Positions 2,873 through 40,660 of a stretch of 64,000 nucleotides of DNA are shown one piece after another (positions within the stretch are counted from its first letter, which is position 1; every line of letters begins with the position of its first letter). Under the pieces are notes generated by a model. It was not told where the DNA came from. It worked only from the letters and a program-made list of their open reading frames with translations, and ran no database searches. The stretch lies in contig JAGAOZ010000014.1 of assembly GCA_017623505.1 (NCBI GenBank), forward strand, positions 62,001 through 126,000, given 5' to 3'. Made by a program: the position numbers and the translations under genes. Origin of the DNA: Alistipes sp. GTDB lineage: Bacteria > Bacteroidota > Bacteroidia > Bacteroidales > Rikenellaceae.

Positions 2873-3189
2873 ATTGATTAGGTTTTGTTAAAATTCGTTT
2901 CTCATTATTGCCTCCAGGGCTCTTTGTTCATAGGTTCAGTAGTCTTAAAATCTCATAGGCTGAAAAGTTTTACGTGTTCAGTTATCGGTTATTTTTAATG
3001 TTTTCATCCCTTACTCCCGACACCACTTTTCACGCTATTACAAAATTAACTCTTTTCTTACGCGTGCGTGTGCGTGGGAGTATCAAAGTATATCAAAGTA
3101 AATCGCTTACTCTTATATTCTATTCTAAATCAACTATTTATATAAAATTCGTTACTCCGTTTTGGTAAATCAAATTTATCACTCTTGCA
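2873..3189. other. Non-coding gap with a weak promoter candidate and a 10-bp direct repeat
   Basis: No credible gene lies here. On the minus strand TAATTTTG (3048-3041) matches the -7 consensus, but no TTTG lies at the right distance, so the call is weak. TATCAAAGTA is repeated twice in tandem at 3081-3100, and an alternating purine-pyrimidine run lies at 3061-3076. No terminator hairpin was found after the GH92 gene. Confidence 0.4.
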
Positions 3190-5493
3190 CTACTTCAAAG
3201 GCTTCGATAGCGAGAACGGTGCCGCTTGTTTGCTTGTTCCACGCTCCATATTAGGCTCTGCCGACATCTTGAGCGAAAGCTCGCCACCCTGCGCAATCTC
3301 GCCATAGGAAATCCAGTTGCGCTCCAAAGTCTCGCCGTTGAGCTCGGCGGCGTCGATATATACGTTCTGCTCTGAGTTACCCTCAGCATTTATGGTAAAT
3401 TTCTTACCATCCTCCATAGTGATTGTTGCGCGCTCGAAGATAGGACTACCCAACACATATTGGTCCGTACCCGGACACACTGCATAGAATCCCAGAGCAC
3501 TCAACACATACCACGACGACATACCTCCTTGGTCCTCATCGCCCGGAAAGCCCTTTGGCGAAGAGTTATACAGACGGCTCATAATCTGACGTGCCCAATA
3601 CTGTGTCTTCCAAGGCTGTCCTGCGTAGCTGTATAGATATACAAGGTGCTGGATAGGCTGATTGCCGTGGGCGTACTGTCCCATACCCGCCAGCTCCATC
3701 TCCTTCATCTCGTGGATGACATATCCGTAAGTTCCCGGCTTAATCTCGTTGCTGGCAGTAAATACGCCGTCTATCTTATCGGTAAAACTCTTATCATCGC
3801 CATAGAGGTTAATCAAGCCCTGCACATCGTGGAACACCGACCAGTTGTAGTGCCAAGCATTACCCTCGCAGTATGCTCCGCCCCACTCCAACTCATCGAA
3901 TGGCTCTACCCACTCGCCACTCTTCAACCTTCCACGCATAAAGCCTGTCTTGCTATCGAAAACGTTGCGGTAGTTATACATCACACGTGCAAAAATCTCC
4001 TCGTAGAACTTATTACCCGTCATACGTGCCAACTGCCAAGCGCAGAAATCATCGTAGGCATACTCCAGCGTCTGTGCCGTCGAGCCCATAGACTCCGGAT
4101 ATGACACATAACCCAGCTGCCAATACTCCTTCCATCCTGCACGACCATTAGCTCCACCCCAAGGACCCTTGTTCATCGCCTCGTGAGCATACGCCTCCAG
4201 AGCCTTCTCAGGGTCGAAGGTACGGATACCCTTCACCCACGCATCTGTCAAGAGTGATATTGAGTGATTACCAATCATACCGCCTGTCTCGCCCGGACAC
4301 GACCACGAAGGCAACCAGCCACACTGCTCCTGTGCCGCCAGCAGAGCATTCATGTAACGGCCCTGCATCGTCGGGTGGAGGATGTTGGTGAGTGGGAACT
4401 GCGAGCGGAATGTATCCCAAAAACCATTGTCCGTATACATATATCCCTCGTGCACCTTACCGTCGTAAGGGCTATAATAGTAAGGCTCGCCCGCCTCGTT
4501 CAGCTCATAAAACTTACGTGAGAAGAGATTTGAACGATACAGACACGAATAGAACGTACGCAGCTGCTCCTCCGTACCTCCCTCGACATCGACTCTGCCC
4601 AGAAGCTCGTTCCACGTAGCAGCACCGCGCGCTTTGGTTACCTCAAGCGACTTATCGCCGCCTACCTCGCGCTCAAGGTTGAGTGTAGCCTGCTCCGAGC
4701 TGATATATGATGAGCCCGCCTTGGCCTGCACCTTTGCTCCCGCCTTGAAGCGGATGTAAGCACCGTAGCCCTTGCCTTTGGCGTGTGTGTTGTCTTTGTT
4801 GATGGTGTTATGCTCGTTCTCCCACGTTCCCCACTCCTCGAAAGGCTTGTCGAAACGCACCACAAAGTAGCAACGGAAGGTCTTGGCATTGTTTACAAAG
4901 CGATGGTTGTTTACCCAACCCTTAATCTCGCGACGCTCGGCGTCAATCTCTATCTCGCTATCCCCGTTATAGCCATCCAAGACAAGATATGCGTCACCAC
5001 CCTTTTTAGGGAAGCTGAAACGCAGATGCACGGCACGCGTCATAGGAGCTATCTCGGAGCGAATACCGTTGTCGAACTGTACCGAGTAGTAGTGAGGGCG
5101 TGCTATCTCGTTGTCGTGGCTGAACTTAGCTCCTCGCTTCTCATCATCCACAACAAGCTCTCCCACCTCTGGCATAAAGGTATAAACAGCATAGTCGCTC
5201 ACCCAAGGACTACATTGGTGTACCTGCTGCAAGCCACGTATCTCATCGAGGAAGTACTGATACTTGAAACCCTCGCCGTTAGGGCCTGTATGTGGGGCCC
5301 AGGCGTGTGTTGCAAACGGCATAGCTGTAATAGGATAAGTATTTCCATAGCTAAGACCGAAATGTGAGTCGGTACCCTGTCTGGTATCGACATAGTTCAC
5401 ATACTCACGTTTTGTATTCTGTGCCGCAGCCAACGCCACGCTGCACAATACAACCGCTACAAATACCGCCACTCTACATAATCCTCTTCTCAT
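3190..5493 (-). CDS. GH92 alpha-mannosidase, exported
   Basis: 767 residues, the usual GH92 length. A Sec signal peptide (about 1-24, ending LAAAQ) sends it to the periplasm or surface. GH92 enzymes are calcium-dependent inverting exo-alpha-mannosidases. The N-terminal beta domain starts YVNYVDTRQGTDSHFG. The helical catalytic domain carries EGNAWHY (543-549), the general-acid region of classic GH92 enzymes, and GDEDQGGMSSWYV (651-663), the base/calcium region, with Asp in the first position where many members have Asn. The C-terminus closes with SEQNVYI and LNG motifs. It is preceded by a single base after the GH78 stop, so the two are translationally coupled. It has the most canonical acid motif of the three GH92 genes here. 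Confidence 0.92.
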   Translation of the reverse strand: MRRGLCRVAVFVAVVLCSVALAAAQNTKREYVNYVDTRQGTDSHFGLSYGNTYPITAMPFATHAWAPHTGPNGEGFKYQYFLDEIRGLQQVHQCSPWVSDYAVYTFMPEVGELVVDDEKRGAKFSHDNEIARPHYYSVQFDNGIRSEIAPMTRAVHLRFSFPKKGGDAYLVLDGYNGDSEIEIDAERREIKGWVNNHRFVNNAKTFRCYFVVRFDKPFEEWGTWENEHNTINKDNTHAKGKGYGAYIRFKAGAKVQAKAGSSYISSEQATLNLEREVGGDKSLEVTKARGAATWNELLGRVDVEGGTEEQLRTFYSCLYRSNLFSRKFYELNEAGEPYYYSPYDGKVHEGYMYTDNGFWDTFRSQFPLTNILHPTMQGRYMNALLAAQEQCGWLPSWSCPGETGGMIGNHSISLLTDAWVKGIRTFDPEKALEAYAHEAMNKGPWGGANGRAGWKEYWQLGYVSYPESMGSTAQTLEYAYDDFCAWQLARMTGNKFYEEIFARVMYNYRNVFDSKTGFMRGRLKSGEWVEPFDELEWGGAYCEGNAWHYNWSVFHDVQGLINLYGDDKSFTDKIDGVFTASNEIKPGTYGYVIHEMKEMELAGMGQYAHGNQPIQHLVYLYSYAGQPWKTQYWARQIMSRLYNSSPKGFPGDEDQGGMSSWYVLSALGFYAVCPGTDQYVLGSPIFERATITMEDGKKFTINAEGNSEQNVYIDAAELNGETLERNWISYGEIAQGGELSLKMSAEPNMERGTSKQAAPFSLSKPLK

Positions 5494-31819: not shown

Positions 31820-32235
31820 CTATCTCCTCAAATTTTAGAAAAAAAGAGAATAAATCCGCTCCTTCGACAACTCGACAATGTGGTTTACTACGCCGCCAAT
31901 TGTGGAGCATCGCCGATACGGGCAGAGGAGGATGTGGTTTGTATGAGAGTTTTAATAATTTAGTAGCACTTTTGTAACAAATATCTCATAGCTGTGTGTG
32001 CAACAATTTAGAATTAAATTAACCAGAACCGTTGTTTTTAATAAAAATTGTAGTATTTTAGCATAATGAAAAACTCTACAAAATGTTAATATAGTCGGAG
32101 AACTTAAGATATTTACCACTACAAACAAAATATAAACTACTAATAGTCAATTAAATAATTTTATTCATAACTTAACAAACTACAACAAAGAATAGCCCAC
32201 AATCAACACAACTTCCTAAAATCCCCACTTTTATT
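31820..32235. other. AT-rich intergenic region between divergent murA and DUF47 transcripts
   Basis: About 400 bases with no convincing gene; a short open frame from 31771 lacks coding character. AT content rises strongly toward 32235. No stable hairpin or known RNA was recognised. Confidence 0.5.
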
Positions 32236-32243
32236 TACCTTTG
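32236..32243 (+). promoter_or_regulatory. -7 element for the DUF47/PiT-HTH unit
   Basis: TACCTTTG matches TAnnTTTG 55 bases before the DUF47 ATG. No TTTG lies at the -33 position, so expression may need an activator. Confidence 0.5.
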
Positions 32244-32297: not shown

Positions 32298-32945
32298 ATG
32301 TTGTTTTTCAAACGTATTGACAAGACCAACCAACAGGTTGAAGCGTTCTTTGATACAGTCGATCAGGCACTGCTTGTGTTCAAGCAGGGAGTAAAGAACT
32401 ATCTCTACTCGGAGATGGAGGCTTTTAACGATAATTTGGCGACAATGACCAAATTGGAGAGTGATGCAGAGTTGATGCGACGCGAGATTGAAAACGGACT
32501 ATACAGCCGCACATCGTTTGTACGTATGCGAGGCGACGTGATGCGTCTGCTGGAGCGTATGGGACACATCGTAGACCTACTCAACGACAACCTTAGCCAA
32601 TTTGAGATTGAACGGCCCTACATCCCATCGGAGCTTAACGCAGATATGCTGAAGCTGACAGATTTATCGACACAGGCTGTCGAGACAACGATTCCCGCAG
32701 CGAAGGCTTACTTCCGCTCACCAGAGGGTATAACCGAGAAGATTCATCGTGTATATTTCTACAAGAGAGAGGCGGATAAACAAGCTAAGTTACTAAAACG
32801 CAAGGTGTTCCACGAGATGGATTCGCTCAAGTTGAGTGAGAAGTTTCACCTGCGATACTTCGCACTTCACATCGAAGAGCTATCGCGAGCAAGCGAGAAG
32901 GTGGCAGACCAGCTATCGGTAATGTCGGTAAAAAGAGCATACTAA
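32298..32945 (+). CDS. DUF47 (PhoU-like) protein
   Basis: 215 residues, all helical and cytoplasmic, the usual DUF47 size. It starts MLFFKRIDKTNQQVEAFFDTV. The Glu/Asp-rich metal-binding helices seen in PhoU-like folds appear as ESDAELMRREIENGL and HFALHIEELS-type segments near the end (YFALHIEELSRASEKVADQL). DUF47 proteins are normally encoded next to, and co-operate with, PiT phosphate transporters. Here the next gene (3-base gap) has a PiT-like membrane domain fused to a DNA-binding domain, so a regulatory partner role is inferred. Confidence 0.9.
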   Translation: MLFFKRIDKTNQQVEAFFDTVDQALLVFKQGVKNYLYSEMEAFNDNLATMTKLESDAELMRREIENGLYSRTSFVRMRGDVMRLLERMGHIVDLLNDNLSQFEIERPYIPSELNADMLKLTDLSTQAVETTIPAAKAYFRSPEGITEKIHRVYFYKREADKQAKLLKRKVFHEMDSLKLSEKFHLRYFALHIEELSRASEKVADQLSVMSVKRAY

Positions 32946-32948
32946 GTT

Positions 32949-34538
32949 ATGGAGTTAGCAATACTGATAATAGCCTTTGCACACGTGGCGATATTTGTCA
33001 GTCGTGGTGGAGTGGCAACGATGATTGCGCCGGCCGCATCGTGCTATGCTGCACCGCGAGCGATGATTTTCCCGTCGCTGACGCTGGCGGTAGTCATAGG
33101 CGCAATGGTAGCTCCGCAGAGTGGTACGACGCTATCCGAGATAAATCCAAAGGCTCTATTTACGGCTTTCACGGCGGCTCTGGTAGCATACGGAATAGCG
33201 CGCAACATCTCGCCGCATATATCACGATTATATTTGGTGGTGGCAGCCCTTATAGGCAGAGCTGCGGCTCTGGGAGAGGGAGCGACAATCGAGTTAAGAG
33301 CTCTTATAGGCTGGGTGGCAGCACCAATCATAGTCTTTATCCTGGCCACGCTGATTTACAGAGTGATATGTCGCGTAATGAGGAGCTCGGAGAGCCACTA
33401 TCTGAACCTACTGCAAGGCTCTGCGATAGTGATTTCCGTAGCGACACTGCTGCTGTTCGGTGCAGTGGGACTTAACATCGGCTCTCAACTCAAGGGGATG
33501 ACAACGGAGCTGTGGAGCGCAGTGGCAATACTGGGAGTTATCGCCGTAGCGGTATTTTACGCAGGAAATAAGAAATTACTGCGCATAGCGTCACTCCGCG
33601 AACGAGAGTTTGATGTGAATCCGCAGTCCGCCATAGCTATCATACTCTCGGCAACGGCGGTGATTGCCTTCTTCTCGTTTGATGCTTCGGCAGCTCTCGT
33701 AGGGGCGAAGGCGACGTTTATATCGCCCACACTCGTAATTTTTACAGCTCTGACAGCCTGCTCGTGGACACAGGGACGCAGGGTAATGAGTGGCGAAGAG
33801 CAGGCGAGAATGAGTGTAGCAAACATCGTGGCACTTATAATCGCTTTGGTGGTGGGTTATCTGCTTTCGTCGCTGCTGCAAGGAGGGTGGAACCATAACA
33901 CAGACCTGCGGAGCTTAATGCTCTTCGTAGCTATTGTGGCTATCCCGCTGTTGGCGATAATATCGCTGCAAAACAATATGCGTATGCGCCGCAAGAGCGA
34001 GCAGGCACGAGAGCAGGCTGAGTTGCTGAAGGAGAATCGTCGCTCGCTGAACCGTATGGAGGTAGAGGCGATGCAGGCGGAGAATGAGAATCTGCGTAAC
34101 CAATTGGAACTCAAGCGCAAGGAGGTGATGAGTGTGGCGATGAACATCACCGAACAGAAGGAGTTTATACATCAACTCTACGAGAAGCTGAAGCAGATAC
34201 GTAAGGTAGAGGATGCGGCAGAGAAGGATAGGATGCTCGACAAGCTGCATACAGACCTGAGCCTTAGGATGAACTTCACGAGCGAGATAGATAGCTTCTA
34301 CACGCAGGTAGAGCAGCTGCACAAGGATTTTGGCGTACGACTGACCGAGAAGTTCCCCGACCTGACACGACAGGAACGACGTTTGGTGATACTGCTCAGA
34401 TTGGATTTTTCGACAAAGTACATCGCTACGTTAATGAATATCTCGCCCAAGAGTGTCGAGATTTCACGCCACAGACTGCGAGCAAAGCTCGGACTGAAAA
34501 GAGAACAGAACTTGACAAACTTTATTAAGACGATATAA
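32949..34538 (+). CDS. PiT-like membrane domain fused to coiled coil and LuxR-type HTH
   Basis: 529 residues. Residues 1-340 hold about eight to ten hydrophobic helices whose layout resembles PiT phosphate permeases, including LRALIGWVAAPIIVFILATLIYR (117-139) as in the PiT interdomain helix and TQGRRVM (274-280) in the second half. The PiT GANDVAN/SNDAVN and STTH motifs are absent in both halves. Residues 345-435 are a charged coiled coil. The C-terminus is an HTH: LTRQERRLVILL (472-483), TKYIATLMNISPKSVEISRH (489-508), RLRAKLGL. I read it as a transporter-derived membrane sensor that binds DNA directly. Its 3-base spacing to a DUF47 gene supports the PiT ancestry. Another polytopic sensor domain cannot be excluded. 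Confidence 0.7.
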   Translation: MELAILIIAFAHVAIFVSRGGVATMIAPAASCYAAPRAMIFPSLTLAVVIGAMVAPQSGTTLSEINPKALFTAFTAALVAYGIARNISPHISRLYLVVAALIGRAAALGEGATIELRALIGWVAAPIIVFILATLIYRVICRVMRSSESHYLNLLQGSAIVISVATLLLFGAVGLNIGSQLKGMTTELWSAVAILGVIAVAVFYAGNKKLLRIASLREREFDVNPQSAIAIILSATAVIAFFSFDASAALVGAKATFISPTLVIFTALTACSWTQGRRVMSGEEQARMSVANIVALIIALVVGYLLSSLLQGGWNHNTDLRSLMLFVAIVAIPLLAIISLQNNMRMRRKSEQAREQAELLKENRRSLNRMEVEAMQAENENLRNQLELKRKEVMSVAMNITEQKEFIHQLYEKLKQIRKVEDAAEKDRMLDKLHTDLSLRMNFTSEIDSFYTQVEQLHKDFGVRLTEKFPDLTRQERRLVILLRLDFSTKYIATLMNISPKSVEISRHRLRAKLGLKREQNLTNFIKTI

Positions 34539-34589: not shown

Positions 34590-36080
34590 ATGAAAAAACT
34601 TTTACTTTCATTGGCACTTGTATGCTTCGGCGTTAGTGCTTATGCACAGGCTCCAGAGAAGTCTGTAAATCAGTATGGCCAGGAGGTTGAGTCTTTGCCA
34701 GTTGATGCAACTGTACAGGATGGTATCCTCGTATTCCAGAACAAGGATGCTAACTACAAGATGTGGTTCGATGTTCGCGTACAGGCTGATGCTGCTGTAT
34801 TCTTCGGCGCTCCAGGTTACGCTGACAAGATTGGTAACGGTATGTCTATCCGTCGTGCTCGTTTCGCTGTAAAGGCACAGCTCGGTAAGAATTGGGCTGG
34901 TGAGCTCGATACCGACTGGACAAGTGGTGTTCCTGAGATTAAGGACGCATTTGTAGCATTCAACGGTGTTAAGGGTCTGGAGATCAAGGCAGGTAACTTC
35001 AAGGAGAACTTCTCTATCCAGCGTAACACAACTTCACGTTACTTGGTATTTATGGAGCGTCCTATGGTTACTTCACTCGCTCCATCACGCCACCTTGGTT
35101 TGAACGTTAAGTACTCTCGCAAGCACTTCTGGTTGTCAGCAGGTGTATTTGGTCCAGCACTCAAGGATTCTGAGGCTATGGGCTTTATGCAGGACTACAA
35201 CAAGGATTACGGTATGAACGAGGGTCTCTCTTACACAGGTAAGTTCGTAGTACGTCCAATCAACAACGAGGACGCTTCATTGCACATCGGTGCTGCTTTC
35301 TCTGTACGTCAGCCTAAGACTACTGAGTTCAAGATTAAGGACTTCGAGGAGCTGATTGAGGAGGATGAGGATATCATGGCAGCTTTGGACGAGGGTAAGT
35401 TCAACGAGCTCGACGTTATCGGCGGTGCTATGGACTCACGTAACTCTACTGACATCAACCGTAAGAAGTATGTTAGCTCTGGTGATTTGATTGGTTTGGA
35501 CTATGAGACAGCTTGGACTGTTGAGTTGGCTGGTCACTACAAGGGTTTGCGTTATGAGGCAGCTTATCTCTCACGTACAGCTCATATGAACGAGGCTGTA
35601 AACGAGGTAGTTTACGGTGATGAGGGCTTCAAGCGTTTCACAGGTGATGGTTGGTACGTACAGGCTTCTTACCTCCTCTTCGGTGGTAAGCAGGCATACG
35701 ATGCAGGTGGTGCAAAGTACACTCGCACAACTGCTGGTCGTAACTGGGGTGACTTGGAGCTCGCTGCACGTTTCCAGACTATGGACCTCAACGATGCTAA
35801 GTTCGACGCTAACGGCGATTTCTTGAGCGGTATCACTGGTGGTAAGGCTAACATGTATGAGTTGGGCTTGAACTACTATCCTCACAAGAACATCAAGATC
35901 GTTTTGAACTACTCTTATATCGATCAGGATAAGTACGCTAACGGTAAGGGTGGCGACAAGGGTAAGTTCTATGTTGGTTACGACAAGGACGGTGAGCCTA
36001 CTAAGAAGTCATCTGCAGTTGTAGGTAACGGTGGTGTTGATTACCACATGATTGCAATGCGTTTCCAGGTTGCATTCTAA
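34590..36080 (+). CDS. OprO/OprP-like outer-membrane porin
   Basis: 496 residues with a signal peptide ending AYAQ (20). A 16-strand-type barrel starts after about residue 50 (YKMWFDVRVQADAAVFFG, MSIRRARFAVKAQLGKNWAGELD, KGLEIKAGNFKENFS) and ends MIAMRFQVAF with terminal Phe. This pattern is that of the phosphate-selective porin O/P family, although many members are not phosphate-selective. The codons are strongly biased and the leader is A/T-rich without G, typical of an abundantly made protein. It follows the PiT-HTH gene by 51 bases. It is the likely outer-membrane entry of this island. Confidence 0.88.
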   Translation: MKKLLLSLALVCFGVSAYAQAPEKSVNQYGQEVESLPVDATVQDGILVFQNKDANYKMWFDVRVQADAAVFFGAPGYADKIGNGMSIRRARFAVKAQLGKNWAGELDTDWTSGVPEIKDAFVAFNGVKGLEIKAGNFKENFSIQRNTTSRYLVFMERPMVTSLAPSRHLGLNVKYSRKHFWLSAGVFGPALKDSEAMGFMQDYNKDYGMNEGLSYTGKFVVRPINNEDASLHIGAAFSVRQPKTTEFKIKDFEELIEEDEDIMAALDEGKFNELDVIGGAMDSRNSTDINRKKYVSSGDLIGLDYETAWTVELAGHYKGLRYEAAYLSRTAHMNEAVNEVVYGDEGFKRFTGDGWYVQASYLLFGGKQAYDAGGAKYTRTTAGRNWGDLELAARFQTMDLNDAKFDANGDFLSGITGGKANMYELGLNYYPHKNIKIVLNYSYIDQDKYANGKGGDKGKFYVGYDKDGEPTKKSSAVVGNGGVDYHMIAMRFQVAF

Positions 36081-36774: not shown

Positions 36775-37245
36775 ATGGCACAGGAGATTGAAAGAAAGTT
36801 CTTGGTAGCAGGCGACTTCAAGCCAGAGGCTTTCAAGGCTACACGTATCATTCAGGGCTACTTGAGCTCTGTACCTGAGCGCACTGTTCGCGTGCGAGTA
36901 AAGGGTGAGAAGGGTTTTATCACCATCAAGGGTATCGGTAGCCAGAGCGGTGCAAGTCGCTTCGAGTGGGAGAAGGAGATTCCTACCGAGGAGGCAGAGC
37001 AGCTGTTGGCTATATGCGAGCCGGGTGTTATCGACAAGACTCGTTACTTGGTAAAGTCGGGTGAGCACACCTTCGAGGTGGATGAGTTCTACGGCGACAA
37101 CGACGGTTTGACCGTTGCTGAGGTGGAGCTCTCATCAGAGGAGGAGGCCTTCGTTAAGCCAGCATGGTTGGGCGAAGAGGTTACCGGCGATGTTAAGTAT
37201 TACAACTCTATGTTGATGAAGAATCCTTACAAAAACTGGAAGTAA
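36775..37245 (+). CDS. CYTH-domain (triphosphate tunnel metalloenzyme) protein
   Basis: 156 residues, matching the bacterial tripolyphosphatase-type CYTH proteins (about 157). The signature EIERKF (ExExK, Glu4, Glu6, Lys8) starts the protein. RTVRVRVKG, FITIKG, RFEWEKEIP and YLVKSGEHTFEVDEFYGDN give the alternating basic and acidic tunnel strands, and VAEVELSSEEE supplies the metal-binding acids. Known relatives hydrolyse inorganic tripolyphosphate. The gene is followed immediately by a strong hairpin, so it ends its transcription unit. Its link to polyphosphate or triphosphate chemistry is the best clue to the theme of this island. Confidence 0.88.
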   Translation: MAQEIERKFLVAGDFKPEAFKATRIIQGYLSSVPERTVRVRVKGEKGFITIKGIGSQSGASRFEWEKEIPTEEAEQLLAICEPGVIDKTRYLVKSGEHTFEVDEFYGDNDGLTVAEVELSSEEEAFVKPAWLGEEVTGDVKYYNSMLMKNPYKNWK

Positions 37246-37385: not shown

Positions 37386-39149
37386 ATGGAGCAGGAGAAT
37401 AAGAAGCAGGCAGCGTTCGACCCGCTGGATATGAACAACTATAAAATCGAGAAACTCCCTAAGATGGAGAAGTCCACTTTCGAGAAGTGGATGGCTCGCG
37501 TGGGTGGACCATTGGCTATTGTAGCCTTCATATTGGTCTATTGGGTTGTGGATATTCCTTTTATCGACAACTTAAAACAGACAGATTTTATACCAGCAGA
37601 GGAGGTTGTAGTAGCAGAGCCGACAGATGCGCAGGATGCAGAGGTTGTTGATGTGACAGCGACACAACAGAGTGCTGACCAATCAGCTGAGGCAGAGGCG
37701 ACAGCTGAAAAGGCGGCAGCAAAGCCAGACGAGAGTCTGAAAAAGGCGGTGAAGTTTATTGAGGAGAATGGTTGGAGTGATTTTACTCGTGCCAACTATG
37801 CGATGTTGGCGATATTCATCGCTGCAATCATCCTCTGGATTACCGAGCCTATACCCAACTACCTGACAGCTTTGCTTGTCATCTTAGGTTTGGTGCTCAC
37901 GGAGGTTACCACACAGAAGGTTGCCTTTGCCACTTTGGGACACCCCGTGATGTGGCTCAACATCCTCTCGTTTGTGCTCGCCTCGATGCTGGTCAAGACA
38001 CGTGTAGCCAAGCGTTTGGCTCTGTGGTTTGTCCTCAAGTTCGGACACTCGGCATCGGGAGTATTCTTCAGCTTCCTGCTCATTAACGTCATCCTCTCGG
38101 CATTCATCTCTGCCACCACCGTCAAGGCGGCTATCCTGTTGCCTATCTTTATGGTTGTTGCGGCGGTGTATGGTGCGTCGCAGGGCAACCGCAACAATTT
38201 CGGACGTAACATCGTGCTGCAAAACCTCTTCCAGGTCAATATCGGTGCGAGCGGATTCCTTACAGGCGCTGGTGCCCACCTGCTGGCAGCAGCCCTCATA
38301 GGTGGTGCTATGGGCTTGGAGTCGGGCTCAATAGGTTATACCGATTGGTTTGCTGCTGCATTCCCATTAGCAATACTCCAGCTCGTCATAGGCTGGTGGA
38401 TTGGCGTTAAGGTCATCTTCCCTATACCTAAGGAGCAGCGTCGCCCACAAATTGAGGGTGGTCTGGTACGTCTGCGTGAGGAGTTGGACTCTATGGGTAA
38501 GATGACTACCGAGGAGTATAAGTCTATCGCCATCTTTGCCGGCGTGCTCGGTATGTGGGCTACAACCGACGTGCTCCACACTATCGACGCTACCTCCGTT
38601 GCTTTCATCGGTGCTGTCGTAGCTCTGCTGCCTGGCGTGGGTGTTGTTAAGTGGAACGATGTCGATATCCCTTGGCACCTTATGCTCTTCTCGGCTGGTG
38701 CTTATGCCATTGGTGCGGGTTTAGATGCCACAGCTCTGCCAAAGACTATGGTCGATGTGATGTTCAACTCGCTGGGTATCACCGAGGCTACACCATTCTG
38801 GGTGTTGTACCTCCTGCTCACAGGAATGATGCTCTTCTCGGCTCTGCTGTTCCAGTCAAAGACTATGCGAGCACTGATATTTGTCCCTATCGCTATCGGT
38901 GTGGCACAGAAGTTCGGCTATCCTATTATGAGTCTGGCGTTCCCTGTTGCACTGCTCATCGAGCACGTCTACGTGTTGCCATTCAACTCTAAGCCTGCAG
39001 CCCTGCTCTACACCACCAACCACTATAGCTGGAGCGATACCTTCAAGTATGGCTTTACGATGATGCTCATCGGCTGGGCTATGATTATGCTGTGGGGAGA
39101 GACTGTTCTGCGTTGGTTAGGACACACACCAGACGGATTGTTCTTCTAA
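37386..39149 (+). CDS. SLC13/DASS-type anion permease with low-complexity insert
   Basis: 587 residues, inner membrane. An N-terminal helix (40-56) is followed by an Ala/Glu/Asp-rich insert (about 70-118). The permease core has about 11-12 helices. The two family SNT motifs are changed: LSAFISATTVKAAILLPI has SAT, and FQSKTMRALIFVPI has SKT. IGASGFLTGAGAHLLAAAL and the C-terminal ALLIEHVYVLPFNSKPAALLY follow the DASS pattern. Relatives carry dicarboxylates, sulfate or phosphate with sodium, so the motif changes suggest altered coupling or substrate. It is preceded by two hairpins and followed by the 487-residue gene (47 bases). Confidence 0.82.
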   Translation: MEQENKKQAAFDPLDMNNYKIEKLPKMEKSTFEKWMARVGGPLAIVAFILVYWVVDIPFIDNLKQTDFIPAEEVVVAEPTDAQDAEVVDVTATQQSADQSAEAEATAEKAAAKPDESLKKAVKFIEENGWSDFTRANYAMLAIFIAAIILWITEPIPNYLTALLVILGLVLTEVTTQKVAFATLGHPVMWLNILSFVLASMLVKTRVAKRLALWFVLKFGHSASGVFFSFLLINVILSAFISATTVKAAILLPIFMVVAAVYGASQGNRNNFGRNIVLQNLFQVNIGASGFLTGAGAHLLAAALIGGAMGLESGSIGYTDWFAAAFPLAILQLVIGWWIGVKVIFPIPKEQRRPQIEGGLVRLREELDSMGKMTTEEYKSIAIFAGVLGMWATTDVLHTIDATSVAFIGAVVALLPGVGVVKWNDVDIPWHLMLFSAGAYAIGAGLDATALPKTMVDVMFNSLGITEATPFWVLYLLLTGMMLFSALLFQSKTMRALIFVPIAIGVAQKFGYPIMSLAFPVALLIEHVYVLPFNSKPAALLYTTNHYSWSDTFKYGFTMMLIGWAMIMLWGETVLRWLGHTPDGLFF

Positions 39150-39196: not shown

Positions 39197-40660
39197 ATGA
39201 TTGACATAATGACCAAGATACACGACAAGTTCTCTATCGAGTTCAAGGTGGGATTCGTTACGCGACGTAAGTTGCGTCATAACGATTTCTCGGTCTATAT
39301 GTGGATTTTTGTCCCCAATGCACTTGATATCAACCCCACCACCTACTCCAAGGCGGACTTCTACCGCGACGTTAAGTCCAACATCCGCCTTATCACGCCT
39401 CGTTTCTTGCTGCGTGATATCGTGGGTGGCGAGGCTACACCTCTGCGTAAGCTGCGTGAGGCTCTGGAGCGTATGGCGAGCGACCCTACGCGAACAGCCA
39501 TTGCGGAGTATGAGGCACAGATAAAGATTTTCTCCGCTATCGTCAAGAGTGCTCTGCGTGAGGATGTCAACCATATATGCACATCGCATCAGCGTCGCGA
39601 CGATGTAAGATTTCTCAGCGAGGAGTATGCATCCCACGCGGGTAAAATACTCTCGGCATATCGCTCACTGCGTAACATCATCAACACCCCTACGGTTGAT
39701 GCCCAGGTTATGGAGTGTTTCCACTATGGTGATGAGTTTATGAGCTATATGTTCAACCAATACACCTTCCGCCTGTTGCAGTGGCTCAGTGGCGACAAGG
39801 AGGCGTATGCCGCTCTCATCGAGCGTCTGTCGGCTATGATACGCGACGAGCAGAACTATCGCGATAAGATGGGCTATCTGTCGCTCAAGCAGGATGACAG
39901 GTTAGAAAACCGCGACCTTATATACTCCCACGGAGTGTTGAAGAAATATATCGAGAGCTCGCTCTATTTGCGTGTGCCGAAGAAACGCGATGGCGTTATG
40001 ATTGAGCAGATATATATGAGTATCGCTGCGGGCTTGTCGATGATTTTTGCCACCATACTGAGTTTCTATTTCCAGCAGCGTTTCGGCAACTTCACGTGGC
40101 CCTTCTTCTTGGTGCTTGTCATCAGCTATATGGGTAAGGACCGCATCAAGGAGCTTGCACGCTACTATTTCGCCCACCGCAAGGGTAGTAAATATTTCGA
40201 TAATAAGGCAAAGATATCTGTCGGCGACCAGACTATTGGATGGATTAAGGAGGGTGTCGACTTCCTGCAGCGGGGCAAGATACCGCAGGAGGTGGTGCAG
40301 CTACGCGAGAAGCACGCCATAGTCTCTGCCGAGCGACATATCAAGGATGATAAGGTGTTGTTGTATCGTAAGTGGGTGCATATCGACCGCGAGAAGCTCA
40401 TCGCCAACAGCGTCTACCACACCGACGGTATCAACGATATCATCCGTCTCAACGTGGGCAGCTTCCTCCACAAGATGGATAATCCCTACGTGCCACTCAA
40501 CCTGCTCGATGATGATAATAACCTCTGTCGCATCGACTGCAAGAAGGTCTACTTCCTCAATATCGTTATGCAGTACCAATACGATGGCAAGACCGACTAT
40601 AAGCGTTTCCGCGTGTCGCTATCTCGCGAGGGTATTGAGTCGATAAAAGAGATAGAGTAA
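39197..40660 (+). CDS. Unrecognised cytoplasmic protein with two membrane helices
   Basis: 487 residues; family not recognised. The N-terminal 265 residues are soluble, starting with a beta segment (KFSIEFKVGFVTRRK, YMWIFVP) followed by helices rich in charged residues. Two closely spaced membrane helices lie at about 271-290 and 299-313 with YMGKDRIKELARYY after them. The C-terminal ~150 residues are mixed alpha/beta (YRKWVHIDREKLIAN, CRIDCKKVYFLNIVMQY). It resembles neither a transporter nor a receptor kinase. It starts ATG at 39197 behind a GGGG Shine-Dalgarno-like stretch; a second Met is four residues in. It is the last gene of the island, bounded by a strong terminator. Confidence 0.75.
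   Translation: MIDIMTKIHDKFSIEFKVGFVTRRKLRHNDFSVYMWIFVPNALDINPTTYSKADFYRDVKSNIRLITPRFLLRDIVGGEATPLRKLREALERMASDPTRTAIAEYEAQIKIFSAIVKSALREDVNHICTSHQRRDDVRFLSEEYASHAGKILSAYRSLRNIINTPTVDAQVMECFHYGDEFMSYMFNQYTFRLLQWLSGDKEAYAALIERLSAMIRDEQNYRDKMGYLSLKQDDRLENRDLIYSHGVLKKYIESSLYLRVPKKRDGVMIEQIYMSIAAGLSMIFATILSFYFQQRFGNFTWPFFLVLVISYMGKDRIKELARYYFAHRKGSKYFDNKAKISVGDQTIGWIKEGVDFLQRGKIPQEVVQLREKHAIVSAERHIKDDKVLLYRKWVHIDREKLIANSVYHTDGINDIIRLNVGSFLHKMDNPYVPLNLLDDDNNLCRIDCKKVYFLNIVMQYQYDGKTDYKRFRVSLSREGIESIKEIE

Follow-up and report, generated by a model that had tools for sequence, protein, structure and literature searches.

A decayed phosphate permease joined to a DNA-binding domain as a probable membrane-bound regulator of a DUF47–porin operon in Alistipes

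A gene of Alistipes sp. probably encodes a former PiT-type permease and transcription factor that has lost transport and, gated by a DUF47 protein, regulates from the membrane the operon of DUF47, regulator and porin genes in which it lies. The proposal is built from sequence comparisons, which give the homology, the fusion, the loss of the transport signatures, a swap of constraint, a recurring gene order and an operator word. From these we infer DNA binding, an activating and not a repressing action, docking of DUF47 on the fusion and phosphate as the signal. The window, the whole stretch of DNA that was analysed, is 64,000 nucleotides long (G000:C17:62001-126000); relatives are labelled by locus (L) and genome (G).

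The fusion is an open frame of 529 residues at 32949-34538 that begins 3 nt after a DUF47 gene, as a sequence-only reading of this DNA had described and as the frame itself and the PF01865 match of the neighbor confirm. That reading also placed a promoter at 34.5 kb; because the gap between the fusion and the porin gene is just 51 nt, a separate promoter there is unlikely. The features are as follows.

32074-32081, + strand: candidate operator CTCTACAA, 162 nt above the -7-like box
32117-32124, + strand: candidate operator CACTACAA, 119 nt above the -7-like box and 43 nt from the first site
32236-32243, + strand: -7-like box TAnnTTTG (TACCTTTG), a Bacteroidetes-type pattern
32298-32945, + strand: DUF47/PhoU_div (PitR-type) protein, 215 aa (PF01865, 36.7 bits, above the cut-off of 24.4)
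32949-34538, + strand: regulator of decayed PiT, helical linker and HTH, 529 aa (Pfam, hhalign)
32949-33908, + strand: decayed PiT domain, residues 1-320 (hhalign 99.6% against intact PiT domains; signatures gone)
33909-33971, + strand: extra transmembrane helix, residues 321-341 (hydropathy scan)
33981-34358, + strand: coiled-coil-like linker, about residues 345-470 (alignment; strongly conserved)
34362-34517, + strand: GerE/LuxR-type HTH, residues 472-523 (PF00196, 28.5 bits, above the cut-off of 23.5)
34590-36080, + strand: Porin_O_P outer-membrane porin, the last gene of the operon core (PF07396, 127.4 bits)
36775-37245, + strand: CYTH-domain protein (PF01928, 55.7 bits)

The pattern TAnnTTTG, which we take to be the Bacteroidetes -7 consensus, lies 13-90 nt from the start at nine of the ten decayed loci, at 20 of the 25 intact ones and at three of the 12 stand-alone ones. 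The CYTH-domain gene, presumably of the triphosphatase type, adjoins this operon at other loci as well, as confirmed at L158 and judged elsewhere from the first residues only. Beyond it lie a Na_sulph_symp (SLC13-type) transporter gene (37386-39149) and a gene for a 487-aa protein with no Pfam family over cut-off (39197-40660), and both are also found near the operon in L064, L066, L067 and L069. The SLC13-type transporter could be a replacement partner. In the window's own genome, which is 93.7% complete, PhoU (PF01895) gives no match and neither PstB nor PstC gives one over cut-off. There is a second PiT-type gene in this genome (G000:C17:135392-136747, 741 aa in an open frame of 755), about 9 kb past the end of the window, and its product has a long C-terminal extension.

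The order of parts that had been read from the sequence, a polytopic domain, a long linker and a C-terminal LuxR-type HTH, is present. The PF00196 match and the hydropathy segments put transmembrane segments and a DNA-binding domain on a single chain, as in transmembrane regulators, and the description of a membrane-bound protein with a DNA-binding domain stands. The HTH is presumed to bind DNA, to which the operator word described below, by its co-occurrence with the HTH, points indirectly. Searches of Pfam, NCBIfam and the PDB with the window protein returned the HTH plus weak noise; the NCBIfam family BT3442_fam matches residues 326-523 weakly, at 23.3 bits with a cut-off of 940. Both halves are recognized in relatives: PF01384 and GerE exceed their cut-offs in L150 (137.5 and 34.3 bits), L153 (170.6 and 25.5) and L183 (191.6 and 29.8), and L133 scores 204.4 bits for PF01384 with GerE at 20.5, below 23.5.

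A hydropathy scan of 17 proteins found 9-13 segments each, with 11 the count in ten proteins and 10 that in the window protein. Because the four stand-alone PiTs scanned score 11-12 as well, a flip of the chain by the extra helix is not proved by the scan. The positive charges of L137 and L063 alternate such that the HTH side would be cytoplasmic (K/R 23 vs 4 and 18 vs 3, hand sums). Published PiT topologies, as far as the available part of the source goes, disagree on the location of the chain ends (PMC3126765). An HTH in the cytoplasm would be needed for function.

The membrane domain is, on comparison with its relatives, a descendant of PiT. The window protein itself has no match to PF01384 at E<=1 and by that profile is not recognized as a PiT permease. 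Descent is supported through the relatives. When the N-termini of nine fusions were aligned by hhalign with 16 PiT domains from the same type of operon, the probability was 99.6% (E 1.4e-23, 298 columns), and with 18 PiTs of mostly other kinds it was 98.3% (E 1.5e-14); an unrelated symporter used as control gave 0.4% (E 0.14), all these E-values being those of one-to-one comparisons. In addition, one member of the decayed clade, L065, passes PF01384 (38.2 bits, cut-off 33.7) and has a GerE match of 32.2 bits. For PF01384, L066 reaches 18.7 bits, below the cut-off, and L147 has no match.

The hallmark of PiT proteins is two signature repeats with the core GANDVANA, according to the available part of PMC3126765. 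The first signature, G(A/S)NDA(A/S)N, is found in 21 of the 24 intact fusions from the order and is altered in L150, L152 and L153, and the second, GANNI(A/G)N, is found in all 24; the intact loops read S(S/T)(S/T/G)Q and (V/T)P(V/I)SS(S/T)Q. The window protein has lost the two GANDxAN-type signatures, apart from one Asn (N176) in the second, and the two STxQ/H-type loops, and the alignment thus bears out the observation that the transport motifs are missing from both halves. Across nine relatives, 10 positions in about 340 are invariant, none of them in a PiT signature but one Asn. A 'GRRVM'-type segment had been taken as a retained PiT feature; because the relatives vary there (QRRSA in L064, KRQEY in L063), it is no PiT hallmark here.

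Relatives were collected from genomes of the order, the family, the class and the phylum. Across 393 genomes of the order, this type of DUF47 occurs in 46, at 47 places (three weak), 42 of which, the window included, were read. These comprise 24 intact fusions of PiT and HTH (PiT::HTH), in which the signatures are for the most part retained, one split fusion (L134), two decayed fusions (the window and L147), one HTH protein without PiT similarity (L172), 11 stand-alone PiTs and three loci cut by contig ends. The decayed set was brought to ten by eight more from a family search and a contig scan, with L062 and L064 counted once as the same place. Full-length copies were found in 8 of 268 genomes of the family, and the nearest full-length homolog is in G181, of the same genus. 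At the level of the class, this DUF47 was found in 3 of 345 genomes, the window's own and those of L183 (intact fusion plus porin) and L184 (stand-alone PiT), so that counts below use 25 intact (24 from the order plus L183) and 12 stand-alone loci (11 plus L184). The phylum survey gave matches in 17 of 395 genomes, four of them weak. Nine loci outside the class all have a PiT, and none has a BLAST match to the window HTH, several being cut by the locus edge; Pfam applied to four loci outside the class found PF01384 and no HTH. In L229-L232, also outside the class and read at greater length, the order is DUF47-PiT-porin with no HTH and with a different PiT tail of about 150 residues; the tails of open frames similar to these PiTs contain no Pfam family.

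The company of DUF47, which the earlier reading had singled out, is conserved at all 10 loci with a decayed fusion. A porin gene lies downstream at 32 of 33 informative HTH-bearing loci (37 in total, four too short) and at 1 of 12 stand-alone loci. As proof of control by the HTH, this link is weakened by the four loci outside the class, all of which have DUF47, PiT and porin without an HTH.

Several single loci depart from the common forms. L158 (G560) is a complete PiT fusion whose HTH is unrecognized by Pfam, and it is also without the operator word described below and without a porin, as if HTH, operator and porin had been lost together. L172 (G020) carries a 513-aa HTH protein with no visible PiT similarity in the same slot between DUF47 and porin; its membrane part would be either fully decayed or replaced. 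In L134 (G075, 2990-4807) the frame breaks within the PiT part, by a real change or an assembly error. A gene before DUF47 in L221 that seemed to resemble the window protein was rejected as a 34-residue helical chance match with no Pfam family.

The loss of the signatures does look, on the trees, as though it happened once. In the DUF47 tree the ten decayed fusions form one clade (100/98), L172 being left out of this count, and the clade sits within a set of 30 rows (97/93) whose other members are intact fusions, the split fusion and one contig-end row. The tree of the C-terminal parts agrees more weakly (decayed clade 82/91). Outside the main clade of the DUF47 tree, stand-alone and fused forms are mixed. 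The label of intact fusion changes nine times on this tree, at least six of them forced by supported branches, so gain and loss of the HTH were not one tidy event. It was probably added within the class, because the DUF47-PiT-porin arrangement without an HTH occurs outside it. The stand-alone PiT of L156 (G653) stands beside L151 and L154, fused forms of its own family, and has probably lost the HTH.

At the decayed loci the DNA upstream of DUF47 contains the word C(T/A)CTACAA, in many cases as direct repeats of 11 bp, and this repeated octamer may be the operator of the fusion HTH. Words were counted on the forward strand within at most 400 nt upstream of DUF47, three loci having shorter stretches. 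The ten decayed loci, which were the discovery set, contain 22 copies of CWCTACAA (0.25 expected), the intact loci 13 copies in 12 of 25 (0.35 expected) and the 12 stand-alone loci none (0.08 expected); the reverse strand has two, three and none, respectively. A hexamer ranking made independently of the word, over 26 intact loci with the split one included, put CTCTAC at the top (15 loci, 1.65 expected), followed by CTACAT, CACTAC, TCTACA and CTACAA; the last ranks 3684 of 4096 in stand-alone loci. The form CWCTACAW is found at 20 of 25 intact and 9 of 10 decayed loci and at none of the 12 stand-alone loci, and it is missing from the split L134 and the PiT-less L172 (0 of 1 each); the loci are related, so Fisher values for word against class overstate the association. 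At the rate seen in the rest of the fusion loci, 0.036 would be expected per 400 nt. The decayed locus without an operator word in 400 nt is L063. A relaxed form, CHCTACAW, occurs at 24 of 25 intact, the split, 9 of 10 decayed and 1 of 12 stand-alone loci and at L172; because it was chosen after the data were seen, it was not used as a test and served only for the absence at L158 and the listing of distances.

Distances from the relaxed word to the TAnnTTTG box mostly recur (21, 42, 58-59, 68-69, 118-124, 133-134, 144-145 and 161-168), others being 75, 113, 129, 151, 155, 176-178 and 226. The spacings fall near multiples of the helical turn (13 unique values, matched by 1% of random sets), a phasing without a sharp period (R 0.60-0.69 from 10.0 to 11.5). 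The word is not rare overall, with 16 copies of CWCTACAA in the window (4.2 expected), 13 of them inside called genes.

It is unlikely that the octamer is instead the box of another regulator, such as a PhoB-like protein, with the fused HTH acting on other targets. The 11-bp direct repeats in L065-L070 do resemble a Pho box, and OmpR/PhoB-type proteins bind such direct repeats. Likewise, at 44 further loci with an HTH of this type the word shows no enrichment over background (7.4e-5), so it is not general for such HTHs. However, CWCTACAA has just three copies at 30 pstC-type loci (29 over the family cut-off and one below; both strands of 111,775 bp, the pst promoters not individually located), and over 59 PiT and pst loci CWCTACAW occurs at 2.3e-5 per strand-nt; with that rarity, the octamer was set aside as a Pho box. 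CWCTACAW is also absent from the four HTH-less DUF47-PiT-porin loci, as from the 12 stand-alone loci, and the sole intact fusion lacking even the relaxed word is L158, the one whose HTH goes unrecognized by Pfam. A further argument comes from the dyad CWCTACAAN{2,4}CWCTACAA, which occurs three times in 149 genomes of the order, twice beside unlinked genes for related HTHs, although the background rate at the 44 loci means that these two should not be over-read. One (L218, G049, 1501-1519) is flanked by a Porin_O_P gene and the gene of a small stand-alone GerE protein, in a 3-kb locus in which no DUF47 or PiT was seen. The other (L217, G010, 1501-1519) lies 6 nt beyond a receiver-domain protein that at its C-terminus shares 39.6% identity with the window protein and reaches only 13 bits for Pfam GerE. 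The third, L219, falls within a long frame where a contig ends. In the window's own genome a dyad with a spacer of 1-3 has one match, L186, with no clear target.

The two halves of the protein are under constraint that, judged from identities, is swapped between intact and decayed fusions. Where DUF47 identity is 0.75-0.85, intact fusions are 0.70 identical in the membrane (TM) part and 0.53 in coiled coil plus HTH (CC+HTH; 53 pairs), while decayed fusions are 0.38 and 0.82 (9 pairs), the pairs not being independent. With CC+HTH remaining at 0.47-0.58, identity of the membrane part is down to about 0.2. In comparison with G181, and upstream of the breakpoint described next, the membrane half has a dN of 0.455 and DUF47 one of 0.052, with synonymous sites saturated.

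A recombination breakpoint relative to G181 lies near codon 390 of the fusion (about 34116 in the window). The dS values with G181 are 0.75-1.96 for six upstream genes and 0.02-0.29 for five downstream genes, up to 40660. Fast evolution had also been read from raw identity with G181, 65% amid a neighborhood of 89-100%; this was rejected as partly an effect of the breakpoint, which adds to the raw contrast, so rates were compared only at matched synonymous divergence. Identity of the HTH with G181 at 59 of 59 codons counts little because the stretch was recently exchanged. The view of the protein as a retired PiT transporter draws support from the swap together with the loss of signatures, the DUF47 tree and the hhalign result.

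A transceptor, which would keep moving some anion through a rebuilt site in addition to carrying the HTH, is somewhat less likely than the reading of the octamer as another regulator's box. The frame is open, the hydrophobic segments are kept and the membrane domain is still somewhat constrained at the dN given above, with synonymous differences saturated. Such a site would, however, have to be found among ten invariant positions, none in a signature save the one Asn, and in a domain whose identity drops to about 0.2 with CC+HTH at 0.47-0.58. There is little to recommend a functionless gene that decays while riding in a porin operon: the membrane half is fast and weakly constrained and full-length copies are few in the family (the 8 of 268 genomes), but all ten decayed copies are single open frames, CC+HTH stays at 0.82 in the pairs in which the membrane part is at 0.38, and the operator word is retained at 9 of 10 loci. 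Least probable of all is displacement of the PiT by an unrelated polytopic protein, for which the missing PF01384 match and L172, where displacement or total decay can be seen to occur, might be cited, against an hhalign probability of 99.6% over 298 columns (control 0.4%), the PF01384 match of L065, a similar length and the same operon slot.

The preferred account, of a permease turned regulator, would run as follows. The ancestor would have been a PiT permease fused to a module of helix, helical linker and GerE domain. Like many living Bacteroidales forms, this PiT::HTH probably bound CWCTACAW above its own promoter and would have controlled DUF47, PiT::HTH and porin. In the window lineage the signatures would then have been lost and the membrane domain relieved of constraint, leaving linker and HTH as the conserved part and the decayed domain as an anchor and dock. 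DUF47, of the PitR type, would gate the tethered HTH, whose most likely action is to activate the operon and hence the outer-membrane porin. Gating by DUF47 is proposed because the PitR family acts with Pit, the partner here is a decayed PiT with an HTH, and no PhoU match and no PstB or PstC match over cut-off was found. Phosphate as the signal is suggested by the families involved, namely DUF47, the PiT ancestry, Porin_O_P and the CYTH neighbor. Support was not found for the earlier idea that phosphate is read by the membrane domain itself, which has lost its substrate signatures and changes much faster than either the neighboring DUF47 or the HTH on its own chain; more probably, the signal comes in by way of the DUF47 protein. 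The mixed DUF47 tree, the unsettled topology and the background rate of the word at other HTH loci weigh against this account.

A bolder version is put forward tentatively, as a little less likely than not. The PiT::HTH phosphate permease may be its own transcription factor, binding CWCTACAW at the same time as it transports phosphate; DUF47 would link the flux to DNA binding, no kinase being involved, and the window clade may have kept the switch only. If true, a series from transporter through transceptor to pure regulator would be alive in one operon slot.

Transceptors such as CbrA and transmembrane transcription regulators are already known, and the fusion of PiT and HTH was not found described: the literature searched (titles and the starts of abstracts) yielded no account of the fusion, its retirement or its operator. 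Among the closest known systems is PitA–PitR, which similarly has a DUF47/PitR gene directly ahead of a PiT-derived gene. According to the part of PMC13170248 available, PitA is present in 97.8% of genomes with PitR, and in S. aureus PitR and its cognate transporter act together on the two-component system PhoPR. The PiT part in the window differs in being decayed and in itself bearing a DNA-binding domain, and the word 'fused' is absent from the text of that paper.

CbrA and the SLC5–STAC histidine kinases, as portrayed in the accessible portions of PMC7096432 and PMC13022988, also join a transporter domain to a signaling output. Their output runs through a kinase and a response regulator, whereas here the DNA-binding domain is on the same chain; the transporter family is also another one, and the signatures, present in intact relatives, are lost in the window's clade and absent in the window protein. 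A single membrane-bound DNA-binding protein is likewise the plan of CadC and ToxR in what could be consulted of PMC10269533, PMC5430869 and PMC7496328, but here the input part comes from a phosphate permease and the HTH is of the GerE type; LuxR, GerE and PHO4 are absent from the text of PMC10269533. The C-terminal helix, linker and HTH (residues 326-523) resemble those of the Bacteroidetes regulators in BT3442_fam, except that the match ends before the PiT-like part. Many other matches of this regulator type are open frames of 900-1000 aa.

The change from transporter to receptor has mostly been deduced from single end products such as CbrA. The yeast sugar sensors are another such end product. 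In the family described here, living relatives show stand-alone, fused and retired forms in one slot, along with a swap of constraint and a predicted operator. This suggests a way of sensing phosphate without a recognizable Pst–PhoU system, in which a PitR-type protein would act on a tethered transcription factor and not on a kinase.
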